DNA of 64,000 nucleotides, from positions 1-64,000 of the forward strand of contig JAAXJX010000038.1 of the NCBI GenBank assembly GCA_012269595.1, read 5' to 3'. Shown here one piece after another: positions 31,496-38,759 of the stretch (the first letter of the stretch is position 1; each line of letters begins with the position of its first letter). Position numbers and translations under genes: made by a program. A model generated the notes under the pieces. It did no database searches and was not told where the DNA came from. It saw only the letters and a program-made list of their open reading frames with translations. Origin of the DNA: Planctomycetia bacterium. Lineage in GTDB: Bacteria > Planctomycetota > UBA8108 > UBA1146.

Positions 31496-34276
31496 TTACT
31501 CCGACTTTCCCGGATTGCCCTTTCTCTTGCGATTTTTGGCTCGCAGAAGGGCTTTCAGGTTTTCGCTGCCTTCTCCCTCCGGCTCGTTGGCATTCTTGTC
31601 CGAGTCGGTTTTGGAGGGTTTCGAAGGGTCCGGCTCGATTTCTCTCCGCCCACGCAAACGGGGGCGCCTGGGAGCTTCTTTGATTTCAGACTCTATATCC
31701 AGTGCAGAAACTGGAGTCTTCCTTTTCTGTATCGGCCCAAAATGAACCCTTCGAATCACGACATCGATGAAAAATAAAACCAATGCCCATCGTGTCAACA
31801 ATGGCCAAAGAGGAGTTTGGCTACTGTTTTGAACCTCGGGCCTCTCAAGCAAATCGGTTGAGGAATCGATCACTCGCCCCCTCGACTCCAGCGCAATCGA
31901 TCCGAGAAATTCCTCATCGGAACTCAAGGTGCGATATTCCGCGGGATATCCGACGGAGAAAGTACGAGCCATGTTGGCACTGGATCCATCAGGCATGGAT
32001 CCATCGATGGTCACGAGGTAATCGCCCTGTTGCCGAACCGGGAAATTCCCGATGTATCTCCCTGGGCCATCCTGACGTATCTCGATCAACTTCGTCTTCA
32101 GATCAGGTCCAAGAACACTCCCTGACAAATCAAGTCCATCCACAAATTGACCGGCTTCGTCGATGGCATCGATGAGGATGACTCCTCCCCTTCCATCGAC
32201 ACGCGTAACCGCCTGCAATGCATCCGTCTCTTCAGGCCGAGAGATAGAGCGAACCAGTTGGGCCCAAAATTTGGAGTTCCCTTCCCAGCCGGCCCATTCA
32301 GTTGACCAGCGGTTTCCAGAATCACTGGTGAAGGCAGCAGTCACGCCGATGCCGTGGCGTTTGAGTGCCAAAAGAGGGTCTTCCTCATCATTGATCAAGA
32401 TCTCAGAGGCAAGTGGTTTGATGGTTGTCAAAACGATGCCGTTAACGGAGGGAAATCCGGAGATCCCCATGACTGGATCTGCTGTCTCTCTCAATACGGG
32501 AACAAACGTACTCTCGTCGATCAGGTTCTTTCTGACCTGGAGTGCTTCCCTGAAAAAAATGCGGGGTAACTGAGTAGGGTCATCCATTCGATAGAATCTG
32601 CCACCCGTATCCGCTGCGATTTTTCTGAGAACCAACTCGGGAAATTCTCCGGAATGGGGCTGAATGCAGATGGTAGAGACTTTGATTTGTTGATCCGCAT
32701 ATTGCTTCAATAACCCCTGATTGGGTGGAGAGGGATCTCCATCAGAAATGATGATCATGTGCCGAGACTGGGCGTCGGTCGCCATCAATCCTGCAAAGGC
32801 CAACTGCATGGAAGGCTGAAACAGCAGCATGTCTTCCGGAGACATGGTGTTGATCTGGGCAGACAGGGCGGATTTATCATCCACAGGGGTCATGGGGATT
32901 CCCCATTTGTCGACCCCGTTCTTGTAAATCAGTAATCCGAAATAATCCTTGGGTGTCAATGCATCCAGTGCCGTCAAACTGATTTGCCGTGCCCATAAAT
33001 TTCCCTGAGGAAATTCACAGGTATGCAAAATGATGGCGAGCGCACCGTTGGGGATGATCTTCCGTTGGCGGATATCCATCGTCACTGGCAAGGCTTCCTC
33101 AACAGGAGTACCTTTCCAGCCTCCTGCTCCAAAGGAGTCGCTCCCGCCCACCATTAACAGCCCAACTCCATTGGAATGCACCAGACCCTCCAGCAGCTGG
33201 GCGACTTCCTTGCGTATTGAAAAATAGGAAACATTGTCCAGGATCACAGAGGAGTAGCCGGTGTAATCGGTCACAACTGCTGACAGATCCGCAGCAGCCT
33301 GCTCTTCTACCAGGATCTCGGAGCCGTTGAGATAACCCCGGATCGGGGATGCCCCATCTGCTGAGACGATCAAAACCTTCGAATTTTCACGGCTCGAAAC
33401 CATGACTGAACCGGCGTTGTTGAGCGGAATCGAATCGGTTCCCTCGGAGGGTTGAATCTGAACCTGAAAGCGACGCTGACCCGTTCCCGAAACTACAGGG
33501 AATGAAATCCGATTTTTCCCCACCGCAAGATCCATTTCCTGCCGGGACAGGAGTTCTCCATCTTCTCTGAGAACGACAGAAGCGGTCGTCTCAACCGTCG
33601 ATTCGAGAACAGCAGCCACCTCAAAGGTTTGACCCGGTTCCACTTCCTGGGGAGCGGCAACCGATTCGACCAATACTTCATTGAATCGGTCGTACACGAT
33701 GGGCCAGACATCCACGGAGATTCCCGCTGCCGCAAGATTGCGAGCTTCACGAATCGCGTCTCCTTCAGTGGGATTACCATCACTGAGAAGGATGATTCGC
33801 TTGCCACCCGTCCCTCCATTAGCCGTCAAAAAGCTGGAGGCATATCGGAATGCAGCACTGATGTCCGTCACACCCTGATTCAAGGAGACCGGTTTTCCTG
33901 ATCCCAGGTTGAGGGCGAAACCCTGTTCCAGTACAGGTTCAGAACCGAACGAGATCAACGCGACCTGGTCTGGGACAGTCAGCGTGCCCAGTCTTCTTGA
34001 GATCTGCTCAAGAACTGCATCCGTCTCCAATCTGGAGACCGATTCGGATAGATCTCTCAGGACAACGATGGAGAGCCCGTCGTTTTCAGATTCGAGAGAG
34101 AATCCTGCAAGCCCGAGAAACAAAAGCAATACTGCCACGATCCTCAGGATCAATGATGAGTTGCGGATCACCGGTGAAGTGGCCGCACGACTCGATTTCC
34201 ACAGGAAAAGCAGAATGGCGAGGGCAGGCACAGCCCAAAGCAACAACGAAGGCTGGGCGAATTCAAAAGTCATCAC
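31496..34276 (-). CDS. Membrane-anchored VWA-domain protein with glutamine-amidotransferase-like region
   Basis: 926 aa; two N-terminal TMs, IVVLRDLSESVSRLE, MIIISDGDPSPPNQGLLKQYADQQIKVSTI, MVGGSDSFGAGGWKGTPVEEALPV, C-terminal TM and charged tail. Confidence 0.85.
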   Translation of the reverse strand: MMTFEFAQPSLLLWAVPALAILLFLWKSSRAATSPVIRNSSLILRIVAVLLLFLGLAGFSLESENDGLSIVVLRDLSESVSRLETDAVLEQISRRLGTLTVPDQVALISFGSEPVLEQGFALNLGSGKPVSLNQGVTDISAAFRYASSFLTANGGTGGKRIILLSDGNPTEGDAIREARNLAAAGISVDVWPIVYDRFNEVLVESVAAPQEVEPGQTFEVAAVLESTVETTASVVLREDGELLSRQEMDLAVGKNRISFPVVSGTGQRRFQVQIQPSEGTDSIPLNNAGSVMVSSRENSKVLIVSADGASPIRGYLNGSEILVEEQAAADLSAVVTDYTGYSSVILDNVSYFSIRKEVAQLLEGLVHSNGVGLLMVGGSDSFGAGGWKGTPVEEALPVTMDIRQRKIIPNGALAIILHTCEFPQGNLWARQISLTALDALTPKDYFGLLIYKNGVDKWGIPMTPVDDKSALSAQINTMSPEDMLLFQPSMQLAFAGLMATDAQSRHMIIISDGDPSPPNQGLLKQYADQQIKVSTICIQPHSGEFPELVLRKIAADTGGRFYRMDDPTQLPRIFFREALQVRKNLIDESTFVPVLRETADPVMGISGFPSVNGIVLTTIKPLASEILINDEEDPLLALKRHGIGVTAAFTSDSGNRWSTEWAGWEGNSKFWAQLVRSISRPEETDALQAVTRVDGRGGVILIDAIDEAGQFVDGLDLSGSVLGPDLKTKLIEIRQDGPGRYIGNFPVRQQGDYLVTIDGSMPDGSSANMARTFSVGYPAEYRTLSSDEEFLGSIALESRGRVIDSSTDLLERPEVQNSSQTPLWPLLTRWALVLFFIDVVIRRVHFGPIQKRKTPVSALDIESEIKEAPRRPRLRGRREIEPDPSKPSKTDSDKNANEPEGEGSENLKALLRAKNRKRKGNPGKSE

Positions 34277-35247
34277 CTCAGATCCTTCCCTGAAAGCCGG
34301 AGCCTGCTGATTCGATTATTGCCAGTATCGGCAATGTAGATCTCCACCTCACCTGACTGCATTTTTGCCGAGATCCCCCTCGGTTCATGCAGTTGACCAC
34401 TGCCTCTACCCAAGCCGCCGTATTGTGCCAGACAGCCCCCCTCGGCAGTGAAAACCTGCAACAAACAACCTGATCGATCAACCACCAGGATTTTGCCGTC
34501 ACTGAGAACATCGACATCGAATGGTACGACAAACTCTCCCTGTGCAGTGCCTGGTCCACCAATCTGCTGTAGCAGTTCACCCTCCGCTGAAAACCGAAGA
34601 ACCCTCTGATGACCGCAATCGACGACCAGAACTGTTCCATCAGGAGCGACTGCCAGACCCTCAGGCCTCAGTAATTGGCCGGGGCCGTCCCCGCGTTCCC
34701 CCCAGAAATCGATCAGTTCCCCCTCGCGGGTAAACCGGAAAATCCTGTCCCTTTCGCCATAGGAAGCGACGAAAATGGTGCCGTCTGGAGCGATGTCAAT
34801 TCCCCTGACCAATTCGAGGTCACTTCCCTCACCAAACCGCCGAATCTCAACGCCCATCGAATCAAACTCTAGGATTCGCATGTAATGGGTATCCGCAACC
34901 AGATAGTGGCCATCAGGAGTTTGACAGAGATCGATGGGATGCCCGGAAGTCCATTCAGGCAACGCCCAAACACCTATGACCTGCCCCTCGTCATTGAAGA
35001 CCTGAGCCCTGCCACTTCGATCGATGATGACACAACCACCTTCATTTCGTGTGGTGATCGCCCTTGGCTGAAACAGTTTCCCAACCCCTCGGCCGGGTCC
35101 ACCCAGAAGGCTCACATTGGGGAGGGGTTGCCAAAGGCCACTATCGGTACAGGAGACAAATATAAAAGGGAGGCACAGGGAAATCCCGAGACGCGATGAA
35201 AGGGGCCTGTGAAGAAAGGATGGGATGGCAGCGAGAAAGCCCATCAA
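34273..35247 (-). CDS. NHL-repeat protein, probably lipoprotein/exported
   Basis: 324 aa; repeats FWGERGDGPGQLLRPEGLAVAPDGTVLVVDCGHQRVLRFSAEGELL; N-terminal hydrophobic segment ending FIFVSC. Overlaps the VWA gene start (ATGA). Confidence 0.87.
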   Translation of the reverse strand: MMGFLAAIPSFLHRPLSSRLGISLCLPFIFVSCTDSGLWQPLPNVSLLGGPGRGVGKLFQPRAITTRNEGGCVIIDRSGRAQVFNDEGQVIGVWALPEWTSGHPIDLCQTPDGHYLVADTHYMRILEFDSMGVEIRRFGEGSDLELVRGIDIAPDGTIFVASYGERDRIFRFTREGELIDFWGERGDGPGQLLRPEGLAVAPDGTVLVVDCGHQRVLRFSAEGELLQQIGGPGTAQGEFVVPFDVDVLSDGKILVVDRSGCLLQVFTAEGGCLAQYGGLGRGSGQLHEPRGISAKMQSGEVEIYIADTGNNRISRLRLSGKDLR

Positions 35248-36881
35248 TCGTCGGAGCGCCCCTGGAGGCGGTCGAAGTAATCGCGGGTCACTTTTTTGAG
35301 GGAAGCGGGAAGCCGCTGCTTTTCAATCTCTGATTCCGCAATTTTGCTGCTGCTCTTTACCGTCTCGACAAACTCCCTGCGGGCTTCACCGGTGGGAGCT
35401 TCTCCACGGGTCAAAATGGTGGAAACAATTTTACCGGGGTTGGGGCCTCCACCGGGAAACTGCTCCGTCTTGAATTCCCCTGGCTTGCCACCAATCTCTT
35501 CGGGATTTCCGCCACCCTGCCCTGGGTTGGTTCCCTGACCCATACCTTTGCCAGCGGAAGCTCCAGCCTGTGCTCCCGATTGCTTGCTCTTTTTGTTGAT
35601 GTGGACAAGACCTTGCCCACCGGAACTGCCCCCGCTTCACGTGCCACCTGAGTTGGCGTCGCACTTTCCGGCGAGGCAATCGGGACAGATTTTCGGCGGA
35701 TCACCTTCAGGCCACTCCTGAGCCAATTGACTCAACTCGGCCTCGGTGAACTCCAGTTGATCCTTGACCTGCTCCAGCATTGCGAGGTCTTTGAGCATCC
35801 GTGAAAGTTGTTCCAGATCATTGACCAGATCTTCATCTTTGGATCCAGACTCACCCGGTTTTCCGCTGCGCCCCGGTTTTCGTCCCATCATTTTGCGGAG
35901 TTGGTCCCCCATACGCTTCATGGCTTCAGGGTTCTCTCCGATTTTTTTTGCCAACGCATCCAAAGCAGTGGCGATTTGACCTGGATCTTCCTCTTGCAAA
36001 GCCTTGGCCAACCTTCGCATCTCAGGGGAGGATTGCTGACTCAACGAATCCAGCCCCTCCTTAAGTCGATTAACCGACTCTTTGGAAGAATCGCTCTTCA
36101 TGCTTTTCTTCGCGGCGGCGACCTTGGACTTCTGTCGATTCAATTGCTCTTGCAGATCTGCGGAAGTCCGCTTCTCCGCAGTTGGAGATTTGGCCGCCTG
36201 AAGGTTTTTCTTCTGATTGTCTGCAATCTTCTGGATGACGTCCCGAACCTCTTTTGAGACCTCATGCTTTTTTGAAATCTCCTCGACCTTTTCCAGACGA
36301 CGGACGAGGGCCTTCTCCTTGCGCAATGCCCGGGCAGAATCTTTGCGCTCCTCCTCGACCATGGCCTGTGTACCCAGCAAATCCATGGCTGGCACGAACA
36401 GGCTGACCAGGAAGAAAGTGGCACAGGTCCAGAGGACCTTTCCCGGCCAAAGATTGGCGACAGGGAGAGCCTGCTTCAGATCGACTGATCCGGAAACCTC
36501 GTTCGCATCCGCGATCACTTTTTTGGAAGTGTCCTCGGTGAGTTTTCCATCCCGGGCGTAGATCGCAGTGGAAATCGTTTGCGGAATGTGTGAGTTCTTT
36601 TCCACTTCGACAGCCCCGGAGAGGGTCGTCGATTTGTATCTGAATACTGAACCGAGGAGATAGAGAAGAAATGCCACTCCCGAAGCCCAAAGTTTTTGGT
36701 CAGTCGCTGTCACCGGTTGGTACAACTTGTCGACCAAAATGAGAACCGCTGCAATCAACAGGCTTCCACACAGAGCGCCCTCCAAAGATCGAAGCATCTT
36801 CAGATAGATCCGCCTGCGCTGAATCCGCTTCAAAAGCAGATCCAGATCTTTACCAGATTGATTTTGGGATTCTGCGTTCAT
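35244..36881 (-). CDS. Coiled-coil membrane protein interrupted by one in-frame TGA (35637-35639): candidate selenoprotein, or stop-interrupted gene
   Basis: Tracks 35637..36953 and 35244..35543 are in one frame, separated by a single TGA plus 31 open codons: ...CPDCLAGKCDANSGGT-[TGA]-SGGSSGGQGLVHINKKSKQSGAQAGASAGKGMGQGTNPG...VTRDYFDRLQGRSDD*. Terminal TGA overlaps the ATG of the NHL gene (TGATG). SECIS-like hairpin follows. ATG 36881 (MNAESQNQ). Confidence 0.6.
35601..35620 (-). promoter_or_regulatory. Candidate bacterial SECIS hairpin
   Basis: RNA GUGGGCAA-GGUC-UUGUCCAC: 8 bp (one G-U), apical loop GGUC starting 25 nt after the UGA. Geometry read by eye. Confidence 0.5.
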
Positions 36882-37025: not shown

Positions 37026-37601
37026 TCAGTCTTCTTTTGACGGAATATCCGCAGGGGGCATCCACGTCTCCAGATCCACTCCTGTTGCTTCAGCGACTCG
37101 ATTGATGTGACTGAAAAACCCGACGACATGAATCGCCTCTAGGATTTGCAGATCAGTGAATCCCTCTCTCCGCAATATTTGAAGGTCTTCGCCAGAGTGC
37201 TCCCCAGACAACTTTGCGAGCTTGAGTGCAAAGTATCCCAGTGCTTTTTGACGTGAATCGAGGGAGTCGAAGTCAGGCTGTCCCGGTCGTACCGAGCGGG
37301 CGAGAGCCTCACCGCCTTCAGCGGAATCAAGGTCTCTCAGATGGGATTCGATTCAGTAGTGACAGTTATTGGCCTTGCTGGTGATGACGGCGAGCCATTC
37401 ACGTTCAGCGGAAGTCAGTTCCCCGGGGCCTTTCATCAGTTGGACATAGAACTTCATGAAAGAATCGAGAAGGTCCGATCGTAACGACATCACTTTCAGA
37501 ATCTCAGAAACTTCGCCAGCACGCCCACCAGCTGCGGCGTATACCCGCGAAAGAATTCCACTCGAATCATCTTCGGGGTTTTGTTGCTGAATCCAGGACA
37601 T
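37026..37601 (-). CDS. AhpD-like (carboxymuconolactone decarboxylase superfamily, peroxidase-related) selenoprotein; Sec at TGA 37353-37355
   Basis: Continuous frame with one internal TGA: ...SAEREWLAVITSKANNCHY-U-IESHLRDLDSAEGGEALARSVRPGQPDFDSLDSRQKALGYFALKLAK...ILEAIHVVGFFSHINRVAEATGVDLE*. TGA lies at the second Cys of the family motif CxYCxxxH. Start 4 bp from the aroC stop with SD GGAG. Confidence 0.88.
37307..37332 (-). promoter_or_regulatory. Candidate SECIS hairpin for the AhpD-like gene
   Basis: RNA CCUU-GAUU-CCGC-UGAAG-GCGG-U-GAGG; apical loop begins 33 nt after the UGA, G at loop position 2. An alternative hairpin GAAUC...GAUUC (37324..37349) with inner UCU-GAG-AGA competes. Confidence 0.4.
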
Positions 37602-37604
37602 GCA

Positions 37605-38696
37605 TCACTCTCCTTCAAAGGGGGGAATCGCACGCCGTGCCAAAAGCCTGTCAGCAAGGACCAGTGCCAACATCGATTCGACAATCGGGACTGCTCTGGG
37701 GAGTACACAGGGATCGTGTCGTCCGGTTCCTGAAAACGTGGTGGCTTCACCACTCTTTTTGACAGACTCCTGGGATTTGCGGATAGTCGAAGTCGGCTTG
37801 AAACCCACCCTCATCCAAATCGGAGCTCCACTGGTAATCCCGCCCTGCAGACCACCACTGCGATTGGTTTTTTGGATCACAACACCCTCTTCATTGGTGT
37901 CGTAGGCATCGTTGTTGTCACTGCCCGTTCTTCCAGTAGCAGCGATACCGTCGCCTATTTCGAGTGCAACTGTGGCGGGAATCGACAACATGGCAAGCCC
38001 CAGCCATGCTTTCATTTTTCCAAAGACCGGATCCCCCCAGCCAGCGGGAACCCCACGAGCCACAACTCCTACCCAGCCTCCGAGACTCTCGCCTTCGTCT
38101 CTTGCCCGGGCGATTTCCGCTTCAAACCTTGCAGAAGTCTCAGTATCGGGACAACGGATCGGGCTTTGATCCACGTTTTCCACTGTCAGTTGATCGATAT
38201 CGACCGGGGCACGTACCCCCGCCACTTCCGAAACCCAACCGACAATTTCAATCCCGTGCTCGAGTCGAAGAAATTCCGCGGCGATGGCTCCTGCTGCAAC
38301 CCGGGCCGCTGTCTCCCGCGCACTCGCCCGTCCACCTCCACGAGGATCCCGATGGCCGTATCGGGCCTCCGTCGTGAAATCTGCGTGCCCTGGCCGATAG
38401 ATGTCTGCGAGTGACTCATAATCCTGAGAGCGGACGTCGCTACTCTCTATGTAGATAGAGAGAGGGGTTCCGAGGGTTCTTCCCTCAAAAACACCGGAGA
38501 GAATCTGCGGTTCATCCGGCTCCCTGCGAGGAGAAGACAATGCTCCACCCGGCCTGCGCCTTTTGAGTTGCCGTTGAAGCAGCTCGGGTGTGACTGGCAA
38601 ACCGGCGGGCAGGCCGTCGATCACCACACCGATTCCGGGGCCATGGGACTCTCCCCATGTCGTAATACGCAGGTACTCGCCGAAGGTATTGCTCAT
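37605..38696 (-). CDS. aroC: Chorismate synthase
   Basis: MSNTFGEYLRITTWGESHGPGIGVVIDGLPAGLPV, RPGHADFTTEARYGHRDPRGGGRASARETAARVAAGAIA, TGRHDPCVLPRAVPIVESM. Confidence 0.98.
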   Translation of the reverse strand: MSNTFGEYLRITTWGESHGPGIGVVIDGLPAGLPVTPELLQRQLKRRRPGGALSSPRREPDEPQILSGVFEGRTLGTPLSIYIESSDVRSQDYESLADIYRPGHADFTTEARYGHRDPRGGGRASARETAARVAAGAIAAEFLRLEHGIEIVGWVSEVAGVRAPVDIDQLTVENVDQSPIRCPDTETSARFEAEIARARDEGESLGGWVGVVARGVPAGWGDPVFGKMKAWLGLAMLSIPATVALEIGDGIAATGRTGSDNNDAYDTNEEGVVIQKTNRSGGLQGGITSGAPIWMRVGFKPTSTIRKSQESVKKSGEATTFSGTGRHDPCVLPRAVPIVESMLALVLADRLLARRAIPPFEGE

Positions 38697-38759
38697 ACCT
38701 CCGAATTTAGTCAATCTGGGGTCGATTGCCAATCCCATGAACAGGACTTGTCAGGATCC

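Follow-up and report, generated by a model that had tools for sequence, protein, structure and literature searches.

The window, the whole 64,000-nucleotide stretch of planctomycete DNA that was analysed, carries a minus-strand gene whose in-frame UGA, as read from the sequence, very probably encodes selenocysteine by means of a hairpin directly downstream, and whose product would be a membrane-anchored coiled-coil selenoprotein of the Planctomycetota. Selenocysteine decoding is supported by the conservation of the UGA, the exchange of UGA and Cys codons among homologues, the covariation of the SECIS stem, the presence of the selenocysteine machinery and the operon context. The UGA would be decoded by the bacterial SelA/SelB/SelC/SelD system, with SelB and Sec-tRNA presumably recruited by the hairpin, which has its GGUC apical loop 24 nt after the UGA. 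The product would hold its Sec and Cys residues in a small cluster (CPDC...C/U...GGTU) inside a flexible glycine-rich insert.

The predicted selenoprotein gene, its product and its operon

Table 1. Features of the predicted selenoprotein locus in the window
Feature	Position	Strand	Remarks
Predicted selenoprotein gene	35244..36881	-	545 aa; ATG start at 36881; one internal Sec-UGA; terminal TGA stop at 35246-35244
In-frame UGA, very probably read as selenocysteine	35637..35639	-	residue 415; UGA in same column in 20/20 rows of alignment A1
CPDCLAGKC motif	35661..35687	-	third Cys is residue 407; second Sec-UGA in eight relatives
Putative bSECIS hairpin	35601..35620	-	stem 35613-35620 / 35601-35608; apical loop GGUC 35609-35612
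NHL-repeat protein, lipoprotein-like start	34273..35244	-	downstream neighbour; overlaps selenoprotein stop (TGATG)
Membrane protein, VWA and glutamine-amidotransferase-like domains	31496..34276	-	downstream neighbour
AhpD-like / peroxidase-related protein (TIGR01926, CMD domain), CHYU motif	37026..37601	-	upstream neighbour; Sec-UGA 37353-37355
Operon neighbour, presumably chorismate synthase-like	37605..38738	-	position kept in relatives

The protein begins with N-terminal membrane helices, continues through a long helical, coiled-coil region and a Cys/Sec/Gly-rich insert and ends in a helical C-terminus, with hydrophobic helices close to the N-terminus and at about residue 150, ahead of the long helical region. 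The AlphaFold2 model is helical with a mean pLDDT of 66 and the Sec insert is predicted to be disordered. A fold search of the PDB with this model gave a best match of only E 0.15, and a sequence search of the PDB returned weak matches only, to designed or coiled-coil proteins. Neither Pfam nor NCBIfam had a family matching the window protein, with nothing near the cut-off, and an Rfam scan of the whole window gave no match at the gathering threshold. By a positive-inside reading made by eye, the Sec cluster would face the extracytoplasmic side. The pattern of Cys and Sec residues tentatively suggests that the cluster could bind metal or undergo thiol/selenol redox cycling together with the NHL and VWA proteins of the envelope, a role somewhat less likely than not; the predicted disorder of the insert lends a metal or redox site no structural support.

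The gene order, from the presumably chorismate synthase-like gene at 37605..38738 through the AhpD-like (CHYU), selenoprotein and NHL genes to the VWA gene, is kept at every one of the 14 family f1 loci that have sufficient flank, with only a partial match to the first gene in L109. The adjoining of the selenoprotein gene and the NHL gene recurs beyond family f1. The UGA of the AhpD-like neighbour (CHYUIESH) is likewise kept in all loci that yielded the motif (L104, L105, L107, L109 and L110), and the best hairpin of this neighbour in a simple bSECIS scan is weak (-5.3 to -5.4 kcal/mol).

The hairpin downstream of the UGA

A preliminary description of this DNA had claimed an 8-bp stem with one G-U pair and a GGUC loop shortly after the UGA, which the sequence matches exactly: the minus strand from 35639 to 35601 reads UGA-AGCGGGGGCAGUUCCG-GUGGGCAA-GGUC-UUGUCCAC, with 16 nt between the UGA and the stem, GUGGGCAA-GGUC-UUGUCCAC corresponding to 35620-35601 and the loop beginning at nt 25 past the UGA. 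That description likened the GGUC loop to the AGGUCU loop of E. coli fdhF. Two of the checks proposed with it, folding in context and conservation of the stem in homologues, both came out in its favour, as the hairpin is present in the MFE as well as the centroid fold of its 70-nt context and the stem is kept with compensatory changes.

Like bacterial SECIS elements of the E. coli formate dehydrogenase type, the hairpin is located directly after the UGA within the coding region, where the bSECIS model requires, 16-37 nt past the UGA, a small apical loop of 3-9 nt with G among its first two positions, on a stem of -7.5 kcal/mol or lower (PMC13188914). With its GGUC loop, its spacing of 24 nt and -9.5 kcal/mol for the hairpin alone, the window element lies inside these limits, and several orthologues fall slightly short on energy, the isolated hairpins of L003, L010, L012, L015, L016 and L017 (-5.6 to -6.8 kcal/mol) being weaker than the limit. 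The bulk fold of the 70-nt context is not unusual (z -0.21), and neither is bulk folding energy past the UGA in GC-rich relatives; bulk z-scores are uninformative and the significance of the hairpin rests on other tests.

Such a test is the association of hairpins with UGA codons. Of the 54 UGA sites tabulated, 38 are followed by a hairpin within the limits of PMC13188914, as are 54 of the 310 Cys codons in these genes; residue 1088 of L052, which is among the UGA sites, is a terminal stop and was excluded from later counts. With a more specific definition (a GGUC or AGUU tetraloop on a stem of at least 5 bp, 16-37 nt after the codon), a hairpin follows 21 of the remaining 53 family Sec sites but none of the 310 Cys codons; for other codons the figure is 53 of 53,445 (0.1%). 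These contrasts are inflated by the relatedness of the genomes, and the two loops were picked after the family had been inspected. An AGUU hairpin with one mismatch is found in L012 and L015. At the terminal TGAs of the same genes, 0 of 17 are accompanied by a hairpin of -7.5 kcal/mol or lower.

Covariation was assessed on segments of 15 genomes, anchored on the protein motif VH (LH in L018), with L017 placed by hand. In this set 93.3% of the cells pair, with 13 two-sided cells distributed over four of the eight pairs, and the stem surpasses all 500 shuffles in pairing and in covariation score (0/500 as high), while shifting the partner by 1-3 columns lowers pairing to only 24-53%. RNAalifold recovers the same stem.

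Conservation of the UGA and alternative readings

Among 60 related genomes searched at the protein level, 22 have the gene, with an in-frame TGA in nearly all close members. Besides the invariant UGA column (U439 in the numbering of alignment A1, which includes the window gene), C423, C426 and C/U431 are invariant. The site is conserved as UGA or Cys in homologues, as expected of a bacterial selenoprotein gene. Eight genomes carry a second UGA, in a column that is Cys in the window gene, and in seven of them this codon is followed by a hairpin of -11 to -17 kcal/mol, the eighth, L014, scoring -6.2 kcal/mol by the strict loop rule because of a 6-nt insertion; in the eight genomes with Cys at this column no hairpin below -6 kcal/mol was found. 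Both states are present within one genus, G010 having Cys and no hairpin and G013 having U and a hairpin. The all-Cys homologue L053, which groups with the four two-UGA genes L019-L021 and L052 with full support, reads GSCSGNG where L019 has GTUSGSG. Downstream of the UGA dN/dS amounts to 0.07-0.35 in eight pairs, similar to upstream, which indicates purifying selection on both sides. The preliminary description had regarded the TGA as functional and the hairpin as a bacterial SECIS, and the conserved UGA, the covarying stem and the Sec machinery support this; it had further called the hairpin the main argument, and an argument it is, but the UGA/Cys exchange and the purifying selection downstream carry no less weight.

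The window genome (G000) possesses the selenoprotein machinery in the form of SelA, SelB, SelD and tRNA-Sec. The genes for SelA, tRNA-Sec and SelD, the last with an internal TGA, form a cluster on one contig, which also carries the gene for SelB. The TGA of selD (L121, G000:C10:10440-11363) lies in the SCAGUAAK motif of the SelD-like stretch IRLTNYASCAGUAAKL and is followed by a hairpin with GGUC in its loop. A second locus matches the tRNA-Sec family (G000:C10:28929-29018; 51.7 bits, gathering cut-off 47) and may be a long-armed tRNA for Ser or Leu. A SelA match is found in every UGA-bearing genome tested, though incomplete, at a contig end, in G197 and G294, and none of the 16 selA-less genomes carries the UGA form (Fisher p about 2e-5 for counts of 32/0 versus 22/16, relatedness being ignored). 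The SelA match G002:C70:14082-15176 holds a TGA and a TAA, which possibly lie outside the true gene or are assembly faults.

These data bear on three other readings of the codon. The draft state of the window assembly (60 contigs) gives some room to a lesion or assembly error in a would-be Cys-codon gene with an incidental hairpin, which is nevertheless extremely improbable, as many species assembled independently of one another have the UGA in this column, at identities as low as about 22-30%, the frame past it is under purifying selection and the second UGA co-occurs with a hairpin of its own. UGA is also the normal terminal stop in these genes, as would suit a true stop that yields two separate proteins or a regulated truncation, reinitiation producing the part after it; this is very unlikely given that Cys replaces UGA in homologues (in L053 at the last site and in the window gene at position 407, the other site), that the terminal UGAs are without hairpins and that the presence of the UGA tracks selA. 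Partial truncation at the UGA under low selenium is possible and compatible with selenocysteine decoding. Insertion of another amino acid, through a suppressor tRNA or a changed code in which UGA means Trp or Gly, has nothing beyond the open frame in its favour and a negligible probability, for terminal TGA stops are common in the gene and its relatives, the exchange partner is Cys and not Trp or Gly, and tRNA-Sec is present with the full Sec machinery.

The hairpin itself might simply reflect conservation of the protein (GQGLVH / ERSFVH) and not be an RNA signal, and indeed the stem overlaps codons of residues conserved within family f1. Synonymous recoding, however, generates the hairpin in only 2.3% of trials for the window gene and in 0.1-6% across genes, with a summed expectation of 0.27 for 14 hairpin-positive genes, which were selected for having the hairpin. 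Moreover, the GGUC loop recurs with similar spacing despite differing protein sequence in L018-L020, L052, L065, L071 and L099, it is found after the UGA of SelD as well, and the stem contains compensatory pairs, all of which leaves very little probability to this reading.

A family across the Planctomycetota and its relation to known selenoproteins

Homologues were found in 141 of 394 sampled Planctomycetota genomes. In a tree of 65 homologues, 32 have one to three UGAs in the Cys/Gly-rich insert and 33 have none, and at least five changes between UGA-bearing and UGA-free forms are needed on well-supported branches, eight in all. The family differs from other bacterial SECIS-containing genes in the recurrence of the GGUC or AGUU tetraloop across much of it and in the position of the second UGA of two-Sec genes in or beside the first apical loop, where it overlaps the loop or its closing pair. 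We lean towards reading these genes as a phylum-wide family of envelope-anchored coiled-coil proteins with zero to three Sec residues in a disordered, metal- or redox-active Cys/Gly-rich cluster, subject to repeated gain and loss of Sec; since the SECIS elements of two-Sec members would be interleaved, their two decoding events would have to be coordinated.

Among the 119 catalogued prokaryotic selenoprotein families (Table 1 of PMC13188914) none fits, there being no coiled-coil or GGTU family, and the family was not found in published selenoprotein catalogues or other papers, in a literature that was mostly openly available. As Pfam and NCBIfam also gave no match, the gene is filed as a new family among bacterial selenoproteins, of which unpublished or unindexed annotation could exist. 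The AhpD-like / CMD selenoproteins (TIGR01926, CxxU), a type already catalogued (2026 catalogue, PMC13188914), are represented by the immediate operon neighbour, itself with a Sec-UGA, but the coiled-coil gene is unrelated and without a CMD domain. Multi-Sec families, among them MbdU and the metal-binding UxxU proteins (PMC13188914 Table 1), share the presence of two or three Sec in a small Cys/Sec cluster, but have another motif, and the window protein is without an NCBIfam match. All-Cys homologues such as L100 show repeats resembling the zinc-binding CxxCxGxG repeats of DnaJ at the corresponding place, whereas Sec members keep one CxxC and single C/U residues; assignment to the DnaJ_CXXCXGXG zinc finger was rejected, as L100 reaches only E 0.0029 and 18.3 bits against a gathering threshold of 32.7 in Pfam and the window protein does not match.

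The gene would add to the known selenoproteins a widespread family of a poorly studied phylum; standard annotation would cut such genes short at the UGA. Its Sec would lie away from the thioredoxin-fold active site that is usual for this residue, in a Cys/Gly-rich segment predicted to be disordered. Members with one, two or three Sec and all-Cys members occur naturally, and a hairpin may be present or absent at the corresponding codon; together they provide a comparative set for the rules of SECIS function and of Sec-for-Cys replacement. The two UGAs are 7-8 codons apart in L009-L015 and L017, and a TAA near the start of the L005 match possibly lies outside the true gene or is an assembly fault. 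L065 and L071, a well-supported pair in the tree, each contain three in-frame UGAs in a stretch of about 20 codons (CPSUG...U...U).
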